From Candidatus Saccharimonadota bacterium (GTDB lineage Bacteria > Patescibacteriota > Saccharimonadia > Saccharimonadales > Saccharimonadaceae), in NCBI GenBank assembly GCA_017480035.1, contig JAFVBJ010000003.1, forward strand, positions 1 to 64,000: 64,000 nt of DNA, read 5' to 3'. The notes under the pieces are model-generated. The model had not been told where the DNA came from. It did no database searches and saw only the letters and a list, made by a program, of their open reading frames with translations. Every line of letters starts with the position of its first letter. Positions within the stretch are counted from its first letter, which is position 1. Of this stretch, positions 24,606 to 31,404 are shown piece by piece. The position numbers were made by a program, and so were the translations under genes.

Positions 24606-25808
24606 TTATTCACAAACTACCGACGTGAGCATCTCTTTGCATCCCCCAACCGTCGTATTGTAATTGTTTTGATATGTCTCGCGCACATAATTATAAAATT
24701 CTTCGAATTTCGCATAAAGTTTTGCCGTATCAACCAACTCTAAAGGATAAAGCTCCGAAATATCCGGCTCATTTTCCTTTTTCCAAGTATTAAATTCCTG
24801 CTGTTTTTTCTTCATTTCCTCGTTCAACGCATTCAAATCTTCCCCAGTATTATTTCCGTGATGAAAATATGCATTTGCCGCATCAGCTGCCGCTTTTTTA
24901 AGCTCATACCACTTTTCTGCATACTCCTTAAATTCTTTCACGTCCGAACTCGTCAAAATTTCCACTGCTTTTTTCAAATCACTATCCGGCCAGCTTTCTG
25001 AATACGTCGTATCTCCCGAAGCCTCCGCCTTAATCCATTCGTGCCAAGTCGAATATTTATCAAGCGTTTCATTGACATCTTTATTCCCCTCTTTTGCCGC
25101 CGCAATCGCTGTTTTAAGCGTTTCATATCGCCTACGGATTTCCTCATCACGCAGCACTCCAGCCGTATCGCCAACTTTCGTCACCACTGAATCCGAAATT
25201 CCCTCGGCAATCACTTTACAAGCCTCAACATAACCGTTAAACGTGTCATTCGCCGTATATTCATTATTCACATATTCCGCAACTTTATCGCAGTTCGCAT
25301 CCGAACGCAATTTTTGCATCTCATTTCGAAGTTCTTTCGCTGCAAGATATGTTCCCGAATAATCCGTCTTAAACGCTCCCGTGAGAACCCCAAAAACAAT
25401 AATTCCTCCGATAATTAGAACTATCGCGCTCGGAATCGAAATCAAAAGAATTTTCTTCTTCGTCGACATTTTCGTCCTAGCATGTTTCCACCTCTCACGC
25501 ATCGACGGCGTTTTCGGTTTCTCGATTTTTTTCATATGCTCATTTGGACCATATCCAACCGGAAAACCATTGTCCGGCGTCTCTAGCTTCTTCTCAACCA
25601 CCACCGAACTTCCCGTCAAAGGTTCAACAACTTGCACAACTTCCGATTCGGCTATCACCGAATTACCGAATTGCGCTTTCGCTGCCGCCTCTGCTTCAGC
25701 TCCATGTAACGGATTCATATCAATATGTGAATCCTTCACTTCCGGATCATACGAGACATTCTCAGCTTGCTGAACTTCAGGAGCGATGCCCTGCTCTTTG
25801 TTTTCCAT
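24606..25808 (-). CDS. Single-pass membrane protein with helical extracellular domain
   Basis: The 400-residue product has an acidic, disordered cytoplasmic N-terminus (~1-90), a basic patch (RERWKHARTKMSTKKK) and one membrane helix (~120-142). A helix-rich outer domain of about 255 residues contains four Cys that may form disulfides (DANCDKV, VEACKV, GGCKEM, VVCE). No family is recognised. A TATAAT box (25815-25820, minus) lies six bases before ATG, so it is leaderless. Its promoter is back to back with that of the recombinase gene. Confidence 0.7.
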   Translation of the reverse strand: MENKEQGIAPEVQQAENVSYDPEVKDSHIDMNPLHGAEAEAAAKAQFGNSVIAESEVVQVVEPLTGSSVVVEKKLETPDNGFPVGYGPNEHMKKIEKPKTPSMRERWKHARTKMSTKKKILLISIPSAIVLIIGGIIVFGVLTGAFKTDYSGTYLAAKELRNEMQKLRSDANCDKVAEYVNNEYTANDTFNGYVEACKVIAEGISDSVVTKVGDTAGVLRDEEIRRRYETLKTAIAAAKEGNKDVNETLDKYSTWHEWIKAEASGDTTYSESWPDSDLKKAVEILTSSDVKEFKEYAEKWYELKKAAADAANAYFHHGNNTGEDLNALNEEMKKKQQEFNTWKKENEPDISELYPLELVDTAKLYAKFEEFYNYVRETYQNNYNTTVGGCKEMLTSVVCE

Positions 25809-25849
25809 ATCTTGATTATATCATATCTTGCTTATGGTATAATAAAAAT

Positions 25850-26788
25850 ATGTATGTTTCTGATTTAATTCCCGAATTTCTCCAGAGCCTCGAAGTTGAA
25901 AAAGGCCGCTCTCTCTACACTACTCGAAACTACGAGTTATATCTGAACCGTTTTTATGAACTCTGCTCCGAAGACATGACACGCGAACTCGAACCAAAAG
26001 ACATCACTCCCGAAATGCTCCGAAAATATCGCCTGAAGCTCAACCGTTTTGAAGACAACCAAAACCACGAACGCCTCTCGACTTTGACTCAAAGCTATCA
26101 CCTCATCGCTCTCCGCGGTTTTCTGAAATATTTGTCCAAACGTGGCATCAAATCTCTCGATCCGACCCTCGTCGACCTTCCCCACGCCGTAAAAAAACAA
26201 GTCACATTTCTCCATTACGACGAAATTGAACGCTTACTCGCTGAAATCCCTATCGACACCGAAACTGGGCTCAGAGATCGCGCCATCATCGAGCTGCTTT
26301 TCTCCGGTGGACTTCGTGTTTCTGAACTTTGCAACTTAAATCGCGATTCAATTAATCTCGAGCGTCGCGAATTCGTTGTTCGCGGTAAAGGTCGAAAAGA
26401 CCGTCCAATCTTCATCGACCAATCGACCGCCGACTGCATAAAAGATTATCTCGACTACCGCACCGATTCCCTCCCGGCTCTCTTTCTTAACAACTCCAAA
26501 AATCTCCAAACTCCCTCGACCTCTGGTGACTATCGCCGCTTAACTCCGCGCAGTATCGAGCGCATCGTCCAAAATTACGCCAGAAAAGCCGGTATCACAA
26601 AGCACGTCACGCCTCACACTCTTCGCCATTCTTTCGCGACCGACCTCTTAATGAACGGCGCCGACATCCGCTCCGTCCAATCTCTCCTCGGCCATGCCAA
26701 CATCAGCACCACCCAAATCTACACTCACGTCACCGACCCGCACCTTCGCGAAGTACACGAACGTTTTCACACCGAAACAAAGGAGTAG
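25850..26788 (+). CDS. Xer-type tyrosine recombinase
   Basis: Tyrosine recombinases of this class resolve chromosome dimers at dif sites. The 312-residue product has the SAM-like N-terminal domain (residues ~1-100). The catalytic R-K-H-R-H-Y set is visible: SGGLRVSEL, VRGKGRKDRP, HTLRHSFAT, LGHANISTTQIYTHV. Size and layout fit XerC/XerD/XerA rather than phage integrase. A longer upstream frame exists, but the TATAAT box at 25838-25843 lies six bases before this ATG, so this start is preferred and the mRNA is leaderless. Confidence 0.9.
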   Translation: MYVSDLIPEFLQSLEVEKGRSLYTTRNYELYLNRFYELCSEDMTRELEPKDITPEMLRKYRLKLNRFEDNQNHERLSTLTQSYHLIALRGFLKYLSKRGIKSLDPTLVDLPHAVKKQVTFLHYDEIERLLAEIPIDTETGLRDRAIIELLFSGGLRVSELCNLNRDSINLERREFVVRGKGRKDRPIFIDQSTADCIKDYLDYRTDSLPALFLNNSKNLQTPSTSGDYRRLTPRSIERIVQNYARKAGITKHVTPHTLRHSFATDLLMNGADIRSVQSLLGHANISTTQIYTHVTDPHLREVHERFHTETKE

Positions 26789-26800
26789 TATAATAAACTT

Positions 26801-27604
26801 ATGAATATCGATTTTATCGTCCTCTATCTCGCAGCCTTCATCTTTGGCTCAATTTTTGGCTCATTCGCCTGTTGCCAAGCTTGGCGCATTCGTGAAAAAT
26901 CCGAAGGTCGAAATCTCGGAAAACACTCCGTCTGCCTGCACTGCGGCGCAAAATTAAAATGGTATGACAATCTCCCTATCATCAGCTGGCTCGCTCTGAA
27001 AGGAAGGTGCCGAAATTGCCACGAAAAAATCGGCAAAGCCGAAATCCTCTCCGAAATCGGCCTCGGACTCGTCTTTTTCGCTATCGCCTATAAATATTTC
27101 TCGGGTTTCGAAACTGTCGCGAATTTCTTCTCCTCCCCTGTCGAACTTCTCGTCCAGCCCCTCATCCTCCTCGTCGCATTTATTATTTACTGGATTATCC
27201 TCATCTACGACGCAAAATGGGGCGAGCTCCCAATGCTCTTAATGCTCCTCGAAATTCCTTTCGCCATCATTTTCCATATCGCAAGAGGTGGCAACTGGCT
27301 CTACGCCGGCATCGGCACCGGACTTCTCTCCGGACTTTATTACCTACTTTATTTCTTCAGCAAAGAAAAACTCGTTGGCGGCGGTGATTGGTTGCTCTGC
27401 ATCTCAATTGGCCTTTTTCTCGGTCGTTGGGAATTCGCCATCATCGAACTTTTCTTAAGCAACCTCACTGCAACCATCTTCTCCGCCCCACAGGCGCTGA
27501 AAAAAGAGAAAAAACAAATTCCCTTCGGCCCGTTCCTCATTCTCAGCCTCCTCGCTATTCTTCTCGCTTCCGACTACATCCTAAAATTCTTCATCATTTA
27601 TTAG
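26801..27604 (+). CDS. Type IV prepilin peptidase (A24 family)
   Basis: The enzyme removes the leader of type IV pilins and may methylate them. The 267-residue product has the N-terminal cytoplasmic zinc-type CLHC and CRNC pairs (PilD class) and seven to eight membrane segments. The catalytic aspartates sit in IYDAKWGELP and GGGDWLL. Type IV pili serve host attachment and DNA uptake in Saccharibacteria. A TATAAT box (26789-26794) directly behind the recombinase stop lies six bases before ATG. Confidence 0.92.
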   Translation: MNIDFIVLYLAAFIFGSIFGSFACCQAWRIREKSEGRNLGKHSVCLHCGAKLKWYDNLPIISWLALKGRCRNCHEKIGKAEILSEIGLGLVFFAIAYKYFSGFETVANFFSSPVELLVQPLILLVAFIIYWIILIYDAKWGELPMLLMLLEIPFAIIFHIARGGNWLYAGIGTGLLSGLYYLLYFFSKEKLVGGGDWLLCISIGLFLGRWEFAIIELFLSNLTATIFSAPQALKKEKKQIPFGPFLILSLLAILLASDYILKFFIIY

Positions 27605-27785
27605 CTTTTCCACTGAAAAAAAGGGGGGTTCTAGCCGAGGAAAATGTTGCCTAATACTCCCCCGTTAGAAATTTTGAGGTTCAAAAGCGCCCTGCCTGAA
27701 AATCGGTAGGATAATACTATATATATTATGTCCATGGACATTTTATGATAATAAGCCGCTTTTGCGAAAAGTTGTATTTTTGGGT
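27605..27785. other. Leader region upstream of the DGR template
   Basis: No coding frame is present. A perfect 12-bp palindrome TGTCCATGGACA (27729-27740) is flanked by AT-rich inverted stretches. A GGGGG/CCCCC pair lies at the start of the gap. Several TATAAT-like boxes occur (GATAAT 27710-27715, TATATT 27722-27727, GATAAT 27747-27752), but none has a clear -35 box. A promoter for the template RNA is expected here and not proven. Confidence 0.4.
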
Positions 27786-27990
27786 TTATCTCTCTCCGGC
27801 AACGTGAACAATGGCTCCGTCAACAATCAGGGCAGCAACGGCAACTACTGGTCCTCTACGGTCAACAATGCTAACAACGCGTACAACCTGAACCTAAATA
27901 GCTCAAATGTCAACCCAGCAAACAACAACAATAAGAACAACGGGAACTCTGTGCGTTGTGTCGCGCAGTAGTCTCCGGCTCCCCTCCCAG
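27786..27990 (+). repeat. DGR template repeat (TR)
   Basis: This 205-bp stretch aligns without gaps to the variable repeat in the target gene (complement of 29976-30180). They differ at 29 positions, all A in this copy (16 A to T, 10 A to G, 3 A to C), out of 58 A between 27796 and 27955. The last 35 bases, covering the target stop codon and a GC-rich tail, are identical. Read in the target frame it has 23 Asn (AAY) codons, the code that reaches most amino acids and never a stop. It lies 33 bases beyond the end of the RT gene and opposite in orientation to RT and target. Confidence 0.96.
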
Positions 27991-28023
27991 CACCTCAATC
28001 CCCCCAAAAAAATCCACTAAAAC

Positions 28024-29130
28024 CTAAAATCTATACTCAAACCCCGCTAAATCAAACATTTTCTTGCAAATTTTCTTTCCATTCACATTTTTCATATATC
28101 CAAGATACGAAATCATCGAATCATCATCAAGAAATCCCATCGTATATTCCATCGCCGCGTGATGAAAATTATTTTTAAACCTTCTTCCCGGCACAATCAT
28201 ATACGGATAAACCACCATCCCGAGAAACGGCGTCCCGTGCGACACTTCTTGAATATACCGCTTCCTCGGATGCAGCGTCAGCCCAATCGAAATCAAAAAT
28301 TCCGAAATCTTCGGCACATCCGAAAGCGCCCTCTTAAATTCTTCCTCCGTCACCACAAGATAAAAATCATCCACATATCTCCCATAATGCTTCCACCCGA
28401 GCTCAAACGTCACAAATCTATCAAGTTGGTCGAGATAAATATTCGAAACCAGCTGCGACGACAAATTCCCAATCACAATTCCCTGCCCCGGTGGCTGGCA
28501 AAACAAACTCTTGTTGTCCGGCAGCCCATCCCACTCTTTCATCGACCCCCGAATCCTCACTCCTTTCGTCGGGTCATCAAAAATCACTTCCGCCCAAAGT
28601 CCTCGCACCAAATTTTTCAGCCATTCGTGCTTCGCGTCGTATTGCCGCTCAAGCCCCCAACACACCCGTTCAAAAATCCGCTTTCTCGAAAGACTCATGA
28701 AATACCCCTGAATATCAAATTTCAGAACATACGCTTTTCTCGTCCCGTTTCTCGAAACCTGTCGGACATGTTTTTGCATCCGCTTCACTCCGAACAATGT
28801 GCCCTTCCCCACTCTACACGAATACGAATCGTAAATAAATCTCTCGTCCCACCACTTCGCATTTTGATTATAGAGAAAATGGTGCACCACCCTGTCCCGA
28901 AACGGTGCCGCAAAAATCTCCCGCATCACCGGGTCATAGATAATAAACGCGATTCCCCGCCCCGGTTTATATCTGTGATTAATAATATCATCTCTAAGCA
29001 TCACGAGATTTTGCATCGCGTTTAGTTCAAAAGTATGCTCGTCACTCGTCCCGCGCTTATTTTTCCGCGCCTCGAGATACGCTATATATAGTTCGTGCAG
29101 CAGCCACTCGCCTAAATCTTTGCCTTGCAC
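28024..29130 (-). CDS. DGR reverse transcriptase
   Basis: The enzyme copies template RNA with errors at adenines and so rewrites the variable repeat. The 368-residue product has catalytic motif KFDIQGYF (Asp139), the DGR-type motif QGIVIGNLSSQ (~216-226, SQ where retroviral-type RTs differ) and YVDDFYLVV (~252-260), then a short thumb. There is no maturase or RNase H domain, as usual for this class. It overlaps the accessory gene by 19 bases. The RT gene runs toward the template repeat. Confidence 0.95.
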   Translation of the reverse strand: MQGKDLGEWLLHELYIAYLEARKNKRGTSDEHTFELNAMQNLVMLRDDIINHRYKPGRGIAFIIYDPVMREIFAAPFRDRVVHHFLYNQNAKWWDERFIYDSYSCRVGKGTLFGVKRMQKHVRQVSRNGTRKAYVLKFDIQGYFMSLSRKRIFERVCWGLERQYDAKHEWLKNLVRGLWAEVIFDDPTKGVRIRGSMKEWDGLPDNKSLFCQPPGQGIVIGNLSSQLVSNIYLDQLDRFVTFELGWKHYGRYVDDFYLVVTEEEFKRALSDVPKISEFLISIGLTLHPRKRYIQEVSHGTPFLGMVVYPYMIVPGRRFKNNFHHAAMEYTMGFLDDDSMISYLGYMKNVNGKKICKKMFDLAGFEYRF

Positions 29131-29936
29131 GCTGAAAGTTCTTTCCTGACTTTTTCAATCGCTCGAAGTATCGAATACGTCCTCTCCAGCGGCATCAGCC
29201 TCAGTTCCGACACGTTTATCATCTGCGCCGTCATATAGTCGAGCTCCGTTTCCATACTCTCCAGATATTTCTTCATCGCCTCTTTCGACTTACTCGCGAG
29301 ACTATATTCACGCACCAATTTCACCGCTCTTATCGTAATCTCATCCGTAACGGTTCTCCTTCCGACCGGCTCAACTATCCGTATCGCAAAATACGTTTTC
29401 TTTAAAAGCTCCCTGAGCATCATAAAAAGCACCGGATGAATTTCCTCCGGCATCATAATTTTATTTACTTTCGCATACTCGAGCGCCTTCGCCTTCTTCA
29501 TATTCTCAATTTCCGAAGGCAAATACTTTTTCCCGAGGTTATAGATTCGATATTCCGGCTTTATCTCGAGTGGATTGATACTGTTGGCTTCGAGTCTTGT
29601 CTCAAGCATGTCAATGTTTCGGATATTCACCACCCCATCCTCAGATTTGAAATCAAAATCCGAATCTTGGACGAGCTTCGAACCCATTCCAATTCTTTTC
29701 GCAATTTCACAGTGGAAAATGATTGCCGAATTGCCAATCATTTTCCACCAATCCCCATTGTTGTGAATGACAAACAGTTTCGAATAGTTTTTCTTCTCTT
29801 TCTCGAGCGCAAACATCTTCAATTTGAGATACACCGCTTTCTGTTGGTCGCCAATCTTAGCGGCTTTCGTGCGAGCAACTCTGGTCGACTTTTTCGCCAT
29901 TTCATTTGCTGTCATTTTCAGTTCACTTTCTTTCAT
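29112..29936 (-). CDS. DGR accessory protein: MutS-I-like N-terminus plus Avd-like helical bundle
   Basis: DGR reverse transcriptases need an accessory protein (Avd in phage BPP-1, about 125 residues, a four-helix bundle). This product has 274 residues. The C-terminal ~120 residues (LRELLKKTYFAIRIVEPVG to the end) look like an all-helical bundle of Avd size. Residues ~36-90 (YSKLFVIHNNGDWWKMIGNSA, then an Ala-rich helix) resemble the MutS mismatch-recognition domain I pattern GDFYE..G.DA..A. MutS-like accessory proteins have been reported for some DGRs; a fusion of both parts is inferred. It lies between target and RT on the same strand. Confidence 0.7.
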   Translation of the reverse strand: MKESELKMTANEMAKKSTRVARTKAAKIGDQQKAVYLKLKMFALEKEKKNYSKLFVIHNNGDWWKMIGNSAIIFHCEIAKRIGMGSKLVQDSDFDFKSEDGVVNIRNIDMLETRLEANSINPLEIKPEYRIYNLGKKYLPSEIENMKKAKALEYAKVNKIMMPEEIHPVLFMMLRELLKKTYFAIRIVEPVGRRTVTDEITIRAVKLVREYSLASKSKEAMKKYLESMETELDYMTAQMINVSELRLMPLERTYSILRAIEKVRKELSACKAKI

Positions 29937-29975
29937 TCAACTTTATTTCGCCCACACGTTTTGAGCTCAGAGGTT

Positions 29976-30180
29976 CTGGGAGGGGAGCCGGAGACTACTG
30001 CGCGACACAACGCACAGAGAACCCGTGGAACTTATCGTTGAGGTTCGCTGGGTAGACATTCGAGCTAAGTAGGTACAGGTAGTACGCGACGCTAGCACTG
30101 CTGACCGTAGAGGACCAGTAGAAGCCGTAGCCGCCCTGATTGCCGACGGAGCCATAGTACACGTAGCCGGAGAGAGATAA
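29976..30180 (-). repeat. DGR variable repeat (VR)
   Basis: This is the diversified copy of the template, covering the last 61 codons, the stop and 19 bases of 3' flank of the target gene. Relative to the template 19 of 23 Asn codons have changed (to Tyr, Phe, Ser, Leu, Gly, Val, Asp, His), one AGC became GGC and two changes are silent. The invariant end GTCTCCGGCTCCCCTCCCAG is the probable initiation-of-homing (IMH) region. Confidence 0.96.
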
Positions 30181-31227
30181 GTTTGGAATACCTTGCATTA
30201 ATGCAGACGAGTTGTAGTTATTGTAAAGGGTCTGGAACTCGCCGGAAGAACCGCCAGTTGGAAGCCTCCAACCTTTCGGGCAGATATCACTTGAAGCGTT
30301 GCCAGAAGTCAAGCTACTTCCGCCGGTTCCAGCTGTTGCAGTATAGAATGTATAGTAACCGCCATATGTAGAGTCCACATATGCGTTATTGGTATCATAA
30401 GCGTTGAATCCAGAAACTGATGATGCTGGAATCGTGAAGTCTGAAGAAACGTTAGAATCGGAGCTGGTGATGGTCTTATTCGCGATTCTGAGATTCTCTG
30501 TCATCCAAACATTTCCGTCTGCAAGCTTCTTAACGGTATAAGTGTTCCCGTCACGTTCATCTTCAAGCTCGATTGAATCGCCAACGTTCGTAAGCGTAGA
30601 TTTATCGAAGGTTTGCATCGTCAAAGTAACTGGCGGCTCATGCGCAATCACCGAGAAAATCACGCTTTTCGCATAAGTTCCGGCCTTGAGTGTAGAATTA
30701 ACTTTTGCGCCGATATGAACAACATTAGTTTTCTCTGCCGTAGATGGAAAATGATCAAGATTCCTAAGTGTCACTTGATTGCTAAGTGCTGGGATTTTGA
30801 GATAATCCGTCCCGTCGGTCGAATATCCCCATTTATTCGCACCCATCGTCGAACTCGTCACGCTTCCCGAAAAATCTGATGCGATGACATCCGTAATCGA
30901 AGAATCTGTGTTCTCCATATCCGTATCATTGTCGATAGACGAGAAATAGAGTTCGTATCCGCCGGTGCTGTTCGTGCTAACAGTCGCAGTCACCGTCCCA
31001 GAATCAAAAACACCTTCTGGCGTTGGAATGTCATATGTCAGCGCAAGGTTCTCCGTATCAAGCGTCACCGATGCCACCGGATTCACCACCGCCGAAACTT
31101 TTGTTTCCGCTGAATCCGCCGCGTTGCTTTTTACTATCGGTGAGAAAAACGAGAACGTTATCGCCCCAAGCATTGTGAACGCCAAAAAGACGCCCGCCGC
31201 TTTCATTTTTTCCGCATTTTTTGCCAT
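29995..31227 (-). CDS. DGR target: secreted protein with Fib_succ_major (lectin-like) C-terminal domain
   Basis: The product (410 residues from this start) has a signal peptide (hydrophobic VFLAFTMLGAITFSFFSP, then SNAA). A beta-rich domain of about 180 residues follows. The C-terminal domain has the FISUMP signature: VWMTENL, CPKGWRLPTGGSSGEF, YWSSTV and GFSVRCV. The variable residues lie between GYVY and GFSV and would form the ligand-binding face. An earlier ATG at 31257 gives ten more residues. The ATG at 31227 has a GGAGG Shine-Dalgarno and is preferred. Display on the surface and binding of variable ligands (host cell, phage or mucin) are inferred. Confidence 0.93.
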   Translation of the reverse strand: MAKNAEKMKAAGVFLAFTMLGAITFSFFSPIVKSNAADSAETKVSAVVNPVASVTLDTENLALTYDIPTPEGVFDSGTVTATVSTNSTGGYELYFSSIDNDTDMENTDSSITDVIASDFSGSVTSSTMGANKWGYSTDGTDYLKIPALSNQVTLRNLDHFPSTAEKTNVVHIGAKVNSTLKAGTYAKSVIFSVIAHEPPVTLTMQTFDKSTLTNVGDSIELEDERDGNTYTVKKLADGNVWMTENLRIANKTITSSDSNVSSDFTIPASSVSGFNAYDTNNAYVDSTYGGYYTFYTATAGTGGSSLTSGNASSDICPKGWRLPTGGSSGEFQTLYNNYNSSALMQGIPNLSLSGYVYYGSVGNQGGYGFYWSSTVSSASVAYYLYLLSSNVYPANLNDKFHGFSVRCVAQ

Positions 31228-31404
31228 CACTCCTCCATCAACCATAACCTTTTTCATTGTTTTAATGTTTTCCTTTTATTTATCGTTCCTTAACGGTCAG
31301 TTTGTAGGGGCCTTTAAACCAACTAATTTTCAAGAGAGATGAAAATTTTTTTGTTTTTAGGATAAAAGTATACGCAAACGCAATCAAACTCCTTATAAAA
31401 ACGC

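Follow-up and report, generated by a model that had tools for sequence, protein, structure and literature searches.

A Saccharibacteria diversity-generating retroelement with a template RNA that is probably circularly permuted and self-primed from its 5' leader

The first 64,000 nucleotides of contig JAFVBJ010000003.1 (GCA_017480035.1; this whole stretch is hereafter the window), from a Saccharibacteria genome of 773 kb, carry a complete diversity-generating retroelement (DGR), made up of a reverse transcriptase (RT), an accessory protein with the Avd fold, a FISUMP target and a pair of template repeat (TR) and variable repeat (VR). Comparison with related loci leads us to consider it probable that the element diversifies the C-terminal FISUMP domain of its target by means of a circularly permuted, self-contained template RNA which is self-primed from a 5' leader. 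With only slightly less assurance we extend this to a whole lineage of patescibacterial DGRs, in which a permuted template RNA would be primed by a strand of its 5' leader, placed at the base of a three-way junction, and closed, in a retron-like manner, by pairing of two strands, a1 and a2. The RNA around the template of BPP-1 decides where the cDNA starts and what gets mutated. In the literature searched, which was mostly open-access, we found no description of a template RNA that is permuted and primed from its 5' side. Sequence and comparison are the basis for the DGR parts, the adenine specificity and the tail-to-tail layout, and also for the helices that covary and for the link between these and the end of TR.

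Template and variable repeats

TR lies at 27786-27996 on the plus strand and VR at 29970-30180 on the minus strand, at the 3' end of the target gene. The initial annotation of this DNA described a gapless alignment of 205 bp with 29 mismatches, all at template adenines, and recomputation returned exactly that: TR 27786-27990 against the complement of 29976-30180 gives 205 columns, 0 gaps and 29 differences, all at a template A, which is changed to T in 16 cases, to G in 10 and to C in 3. As the A content of TR is 62/205, the probability that 29/29 mismatches fall on A by chance is about 9e-16. The homology extends further, to 27996/29970 (211 nt), with a single non-A mismatch at 27991. Adenine is present in 37/62 template codons, chiefly AAC and AAT, and a stop codon is reachable by mutation from only one A-containing codon; this make-up, with A-rich codons and little stop risk, is the usual DGR design. 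A scan of the host genome for further VRs of TR 27786-27996 found only 29970-30180. Together with the RT, the accessory gene and the target, all confirmed from sequence, these results bear out the annotation's claim of a complete DGR with the signature of adenine-specific mutagenesis. The same specificity is present in the relatives. A search for TR/VR pairs in which mismatches at A were demanded succeeded in 78 loci, and 1707 of the 1756 mismatches pooled over them (97.2%) are at template A; these 78 pairs take the place of a comparison between strains.

Inverted templates across the genus

The RT, the accessory gene and the target are all on the minus strand and TR is on the plus strand, just past the RT stop, so the template is antisense to the RT, as had been annotated. 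The RT family was found in 96 of the 174 genomes of the genus, often in multiple copies; Saccharibacteria, obligate epibionts with genomes below 1 Mb, thus retain 1-4 elements per genome in more than half of the species of this genus. In 73/78 loci TR runs antisense to the RT and directly adjoins the RT 3' end; the target is on the RT strand in 56 of them and on the TR strand in 17. The remaining five are three same-strand loci (two of which are one record) and two with TR elsewhere, and in another six loci of the genus TR is antisense as well. The window's own genome holds a second DGR of the family (L036; contig 2, 81487-82783), whose RT is 54% identical and whose TR is likewise antisense to and 3' of its RT. 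The inverted template is the rule in the genus and not a peculiarity of the window locus. A one-off local inversion in the host genome, or an assembly error, would account for a single such locus; its probability is negligible, and we regard it as ruled out by the repetition of the layout in 73/78 loci of many independent genomes and in L036. In the RT tree the genus family forms one group, with support of 99 against conventional DGR RTs, and two same-strand rows are nested inside it. In other families of Saccharibacteria (L191-L195, RT about 50% identical) TR is on the RT strand, approximately 250-380 nt behind the RT.

Schillinger et al. described DGRs with an inverted template in 2012 (PMC3521204), so the inversion by itself is not new; what is new here, in relation to the literature searched, is the RNA. 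The group 4 elements described there (Shewanella, Vibrio, Photobacterium) have RT and TR on opposite strands, as here; they are three related elements deemed a rare event, in which TR, VR and target share a strand. The VR and target of the window are, unlike those of group 4, on the RT strand, and the 17 relatives mentioned above have the group 4 layout. RNA anatomy is not described in the parts of that account that were consulted. Clade 2 of Roux et al. 2021 (PMC8144416), a DGR clade restricted to the candidate phyla radiation and compared here by description only, is patescibacterial and cellular, as is the element of the window; neither template orientation nor RNA structure is discussed there.

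Two further groups of loci were observed in the genus. A second, divergent DGR family (L090-L094, RT 26-32% identical) has a conventional same-strand TR upstream of the RT. In one RT sub-branch (L057, L060, L065, L085, L158, L164, L165 and L174) the RTs are intact and no TR/VR pair was found nearby; their template or target may be elsewhere in the genome.

A conserved 5' leader with a three-way junction

Upstream of TR, at 27623-27765 on the plus strand, is a conserved, covarying 5' leader, and the template RNA unit begins with a1 at 27623, about 160 nt 5' of TR. The annotated interval of 27786-31227 starts too late to be the full element, this structured leader having been left out. At the core of the leader is a predicted three-way junction (27681-27765; covariance models R2 and R3, covariation and minimum free energy folding), in which an outer helix P1 (27682-27689/27757-27764) encloses P2 (27691-27696/27705-27710) and P3 (27718-27732/27737-27750). 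It is preceded by a strand called Pr and, between a1 and Pr, by a hairpin P0 (27629-27670), which comes from the minimum free energy fold of the window only. Directly 3' of Pr there is a near-invariant A, which in the family model is the first one of P1; it is at 27683 in the window and present in 17/19 and 13/15 loci, and to take it as the candidate priming nucleotide is speculative.

A leader alignment made with MAFFT did not align the helices, and covariance models were iterated instead, seeded from two and then from six sequences. The six-sequence model matched 17 further loci, the window (27681-27765) among them, all on the TR strand and 5' of TR. Among 21 sequences double-sided changes occur at 25/25 junction pairs, and 90.9% of junction cells are paired, compared with 58.1% in shuffles and at most 47% when the partners are slid, figures which are biased towards the model because the structural alignments were fitted to it. 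For this reason more weight belongs to the held-out matches and the permutation tests, which are free of that bias. In 40 held-out loci (315 kb) all 9 matches at E<0.1 were directly 5' of TR and on the TR strand, with only two misplaced matches, at E=0.67 and 2.6, and in the next 20 loci three matched strongly and at the correct place. Across the 174 genomes all 11 model matches at E<=0.01 sit at DGR TRs. Phage, BPP-1 and conventional same-genus DGR loci gave no match to the leader model at E<0.1, and no Rfam family matched the leader of the window or of 17 relatives.

A free-form descriptor of the three-way junction was also tried and rejected as too permissive (16/48 loci at p<=0.05). One phage record (L188, 3184-3376) carries the Rfam RNA RT-15 annotated over its avd-TR region, so some DGR RNAs are already in Rfam under RT-n names.

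Predicted pairing of the leader with the template end

Two strands of the leader have partners at the other end of the template. The first, a1 (27623-27628), is the predicted 5' strand of a closing helix whose 3' strand, a2 (28000-28005, CCCCCC), stands just past TR. Over the family, the 5' part of the leader scored against the 40 nt after its own TR has a mean of 19.61, compared with 16.51 (sd 0.31) for the ends of other loci (z=10.1), and the controls gave 0.6 (reversed strand), -0.3 (+41..+80) and 1.4 (near the leader). The second, Pr (27674-27680, TTGAGGT), is the predicted primer strand and its partner is T (27992-27998, ACCTCAA), the 3' end of TR. The 9 nt before P1 match the last nucleotides of TR with z=8.7 in 31 loci (controls 1.2, -0.9 and 1.7), and in 42 loci without a model match z is 7.8. 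The interaction energy of matched leaders and TR ends is likewise stronger than that of mismatched ones (z=-9.2). When the leader and TR end of the window were folded without constraints, with the body of TR excised, a1:a2, Pr:T, P1, P2 and P3 all formed; a1:a2 paired with a probability of 0.96 or more and Pr:T with one of 0.72-0.999. The last 50 nt of the leader showed no pairing with the TR end. RNAduplex gave no useful signal when applied to long segments (residual -1.0 +/- 0.6).

Structured 5' leaders are often regulators, this one comes after a promoter-like box and before TR, and no Rfam match is there to decide the matter; the leader could accordingly be a separate element, such as an attenuator, a riboswitch-like or an RNA-stability element, which controls transcription of TR and has no part in priming. 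We consider this improbable, since two leader strands show covariation, one with the 3' end of TR and one with the sequence adjoining it, in a geometry fixed in relation to P1, and a regulator needs no such covariation. The unit of leader, TR and a2 is moreover whole in L043 and L083, where it is away from the RT 3' end, which suggests that it moves as a module.

The position of the partner of the TR end differs between groups of elements. Over the whole genus it is found upstream, with z=8.6 there compared with -0.2 downstream. In 9 loci of other Saccharibacteria genera the upstream and downstream values are 3.9 and -0.7, compared with 0.4 and 1.5 for 10 phage DGRs. The region 21-170 nt downstream of TR held no matched partner of the TR end, and a spacer lying antisense in RT coding sequence was rejected on this ground. 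As the 9 loci from other genera have a same-strand TR and upstream partners, the permuted RNA is probably older than the inversion, which it may have allowed.

Comparison with the RNA of BPP-1

The same search applied to BPP-1 (NC_005357) pairs positions -11..-5 of the TR end with positions 48-54 of the spacer (Sp), directly before A56, which we take to be the priming adenine, and it gives a helix of 16 bp in which Sp 65-80 pairs with the stretch 71-56 nt upstream of TR. The spacer of BPP-1 is known to fold, to recruit bRT-Avd and to prime from an internal adenine, and this 3' spacer is required (PMC12875486). BPP-1 and the window have in common an A-specific transfer from TR to VR, a homologous RT with the YxDD and SQ motifs, a partner with the Avd fold, and a primer strand, predicted in the window, which pairs with the TR end and is followed on its 3' side by a flank that pairs with sequence upstream of TR. 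They differ in that TR of BPP-1 (mtd-avd-TR-brt) is on the RT strand and that of the window is antisense to it. The primer strand of BPP-1 lies at +48, within a spacer of 144 nt on the 3' side of TR; in the window the predicted one is 5' of TR, before the junction, and 3' of TR there is only the short a2 strand where BPP-1 has primer strand and scaffold. The order U-TR-T-Pr-U' of BPP-1 and the order a1-Pr-P1-TR-T-a2 of the window are related by circular permutation, the counterpart of P1 being the helix that BPP-1 forms from Sp 65-80 and sequence upstream of TR, and that of the covalent link of T and Pr being a1:a2.

The window RNA might also work as in BPP-1, running on antisense into the RT gene and primed from a 3' spacer, with the leader a mere regulatory 5' untranslated region. 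The requirement for the 3' spacer in BPP-1 speaks for this, and no terminator is seen in 58/72 loci, so that read-through into the RT gene is possible. We nevertheless judge it unlikely, though the least so of the alternatives weighed here: the complementarity to the TR end is upstream of TR in the genus, the partner of a1 lies in +1..+40 and not in +41..+80, and terminator-like hairpins occur in the gap after TR in 14/72 relatives compared with 3 in shuffles.

Template transcript and proposed mechanism

The initial annotation held that the template needs its own promoter and that its transcript runs toward the RT mRNA. As to the first, among relatives 12 hexamers resembling a -10 box were found in the 11 positions 3-13 nt before a1, compared with 8 in the outer 41 positions; since such a hexamer often ends 3-13 nt before a clear a1, a1 is probably the 5' end of the template transcript. 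As to the second, the RT does lie in the direction of transcription of the template, yet all conserved parts of the RNA can end before the RT stop: a2 of the window ends at 28005 and the RT stop codon begins at 28024, and a2 is wholly before the RT stop in 26/33 loci. The RNA of the window can consequently end before the stop codon, and antisense pressure on the RT mRNA need not arise. No terminator-like hairpin was found after TR in the window.

Several observations, apart from the fitted alignments already mentioned, weigh against the reading of a permuted, 5'-primed RNA. The window is without a clear -10 box at the spacing of 3-13 nt before a1, so that the claim of an own promoter draws its support from the relatives. 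At E<0.1 the model of the three-way junction fails to detect roughly half of the loci. The a1:a2 helix of the window is a run of six G paired with six C, not significant alone, and the a1:a2 score reached 20 in only 30/69 loci. Finally, the equivalence of the window RNA with that of BPP-1 is topological.

We propose that the template RNA would be a transcript of its own, made from its own promoter on the strand opposite the RT, with a1, a hairpin, Pr, the three-way junction (P1 around P2 and P3), TR and a2 following each other from 5' to 3'. Pairing of a1 with a2 just past TR would bring the RNA ends together, and Pr would pair with the last nucleotides of TR in a polarity that fits Pr as primer and TR as template. 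The RT and its Avd-type partner would bind the RNA scaffold, and the cDNA would begin at the Pr/P1 junction, probably at a 2'-OH, comparable to A56 of the BPP-1 spacer. Copying of TR would then introduce errors at A, and VR would be replaced by the resulting cDNA, the diversified part being the C-terminal domain of what appears to be a surface-type FISUMP protein. In this scheme the start and stop of transcription, the assembly of the ribonucleoprotein (RNP), branch priming, and retrohoming with replacement of VR are steps that we infer.

If this is true, the parts which every DGR RNA needs become readable by comparing BPP-1 with permuted layouts, and would be a strand for priming that pairs with the TR end, together with a helix between the 3' flank of the primer and the region upstream of TR. 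The template would also be freed from the RT transcript, which would explain how template units flip, move and stand antisense to the RT. The prediction offers concrete base pairs to mutate, a route to the templates of DGRs whose TR is away from the RT, and a compact, self-contained template cassette, drivable from its own promoter, for DGR-based protein diversification.

Genes of the element and its surroundings

The RT gene (28024-29130, minus strand; Pfam RVT_1, 5e-10) encodes the YVDD motif and the DGR motif (I/V/L)GxxxSQ in the form IGNLSSQ, and the SQ motif is present in 78/78 RTs of the related loci. Its nearest solved relative is bRT of BPP-1 in the DGR RNP (8ub7, E=1.8e-22), its identity to phage DGR RTs is 37-39%, and no close relative was found in the viral contigs searched.

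In the msr-msd RNA of retrons the order is a1, scaffold, template, a2. The RNA of the window shares with it the predicted pairing of its 5' and 3' ends around a 5' scaffold and a 3' template, and the RT weakly matches the model retron_St85 (5e-10, 39 bits against a cut-off of 235). It could hence be asked whether the system is retron-like, with an a1:a2 closure, a scaffold on the 5' side and priming at a nucleotide that adjoins a1, and only superficially resembles a DGR. This is very improbable in view of the A-specific TR/VR pair, the SQ motif in all RTs, the closest solved structure being bRT and the Avd fold of the accessory protein; unlike in retrons, the template is a TR that is copied into VR, and in its RT, partner and function the system is a DGR.

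The accessory gene (29112-29936, minus strand) encodes a protein which in its AlphaFold (AF2) model has an N-terminal alpha/beta domain and a C-terminal four-helix bundle similar to Avd (8ubb_D and 4dwl_D, target TM 0.82-0.84). Its sequence match to NF033474 is weak (E=0.007), and a sequence search of solved structures with the accessory family returned helical chance matches only. The N-terminal domain (29442-29831) is additional in relation to Avd of BPP-1. Its top structural matches are to MutS domain I, with a VIA Z of 6.9 that is below the level excluding chance, and Pfam gave no match of the protein to MutS_I (PF01624). MSL accessory proteins of DGRs carry PF01624 (PMC10053308), and the modelled domain is tentatively MutS domain I-like, in line with these proteins; the model hints at an MSL-Avd fusion. 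The target gene (29995-31257, minus strand) encodes 420 aa with a hydrophobic N-terminal segment and a C-terminal domain, containing the VR, that matches PF09603 (FISUMP, 1.2e-14) and weakly PF07603 (Lcl_C, 0.0014).

Target recognition in BPP-1 involves a hairpin downstream of VR, and similar hairpins are present in many relatives, while the window has no hairpin or cruciform directly downstream of VR. In L151, L166, L136, L038, L034, L149, L063 and L037 VR is immediately followed by a long hairpin of 10-14 perfectly paired bp. As evidence the hairpin was discounted, because its mean score, higher than in shuffles, is equal to that of the following 60 nt.

On the TR strand of the window, at 25544-27604, genes of a XerC/D-type recombinase and a prepilin peptidase (A24) end 19 nt before a1, and read-through from them could be an additional source of template RNA.

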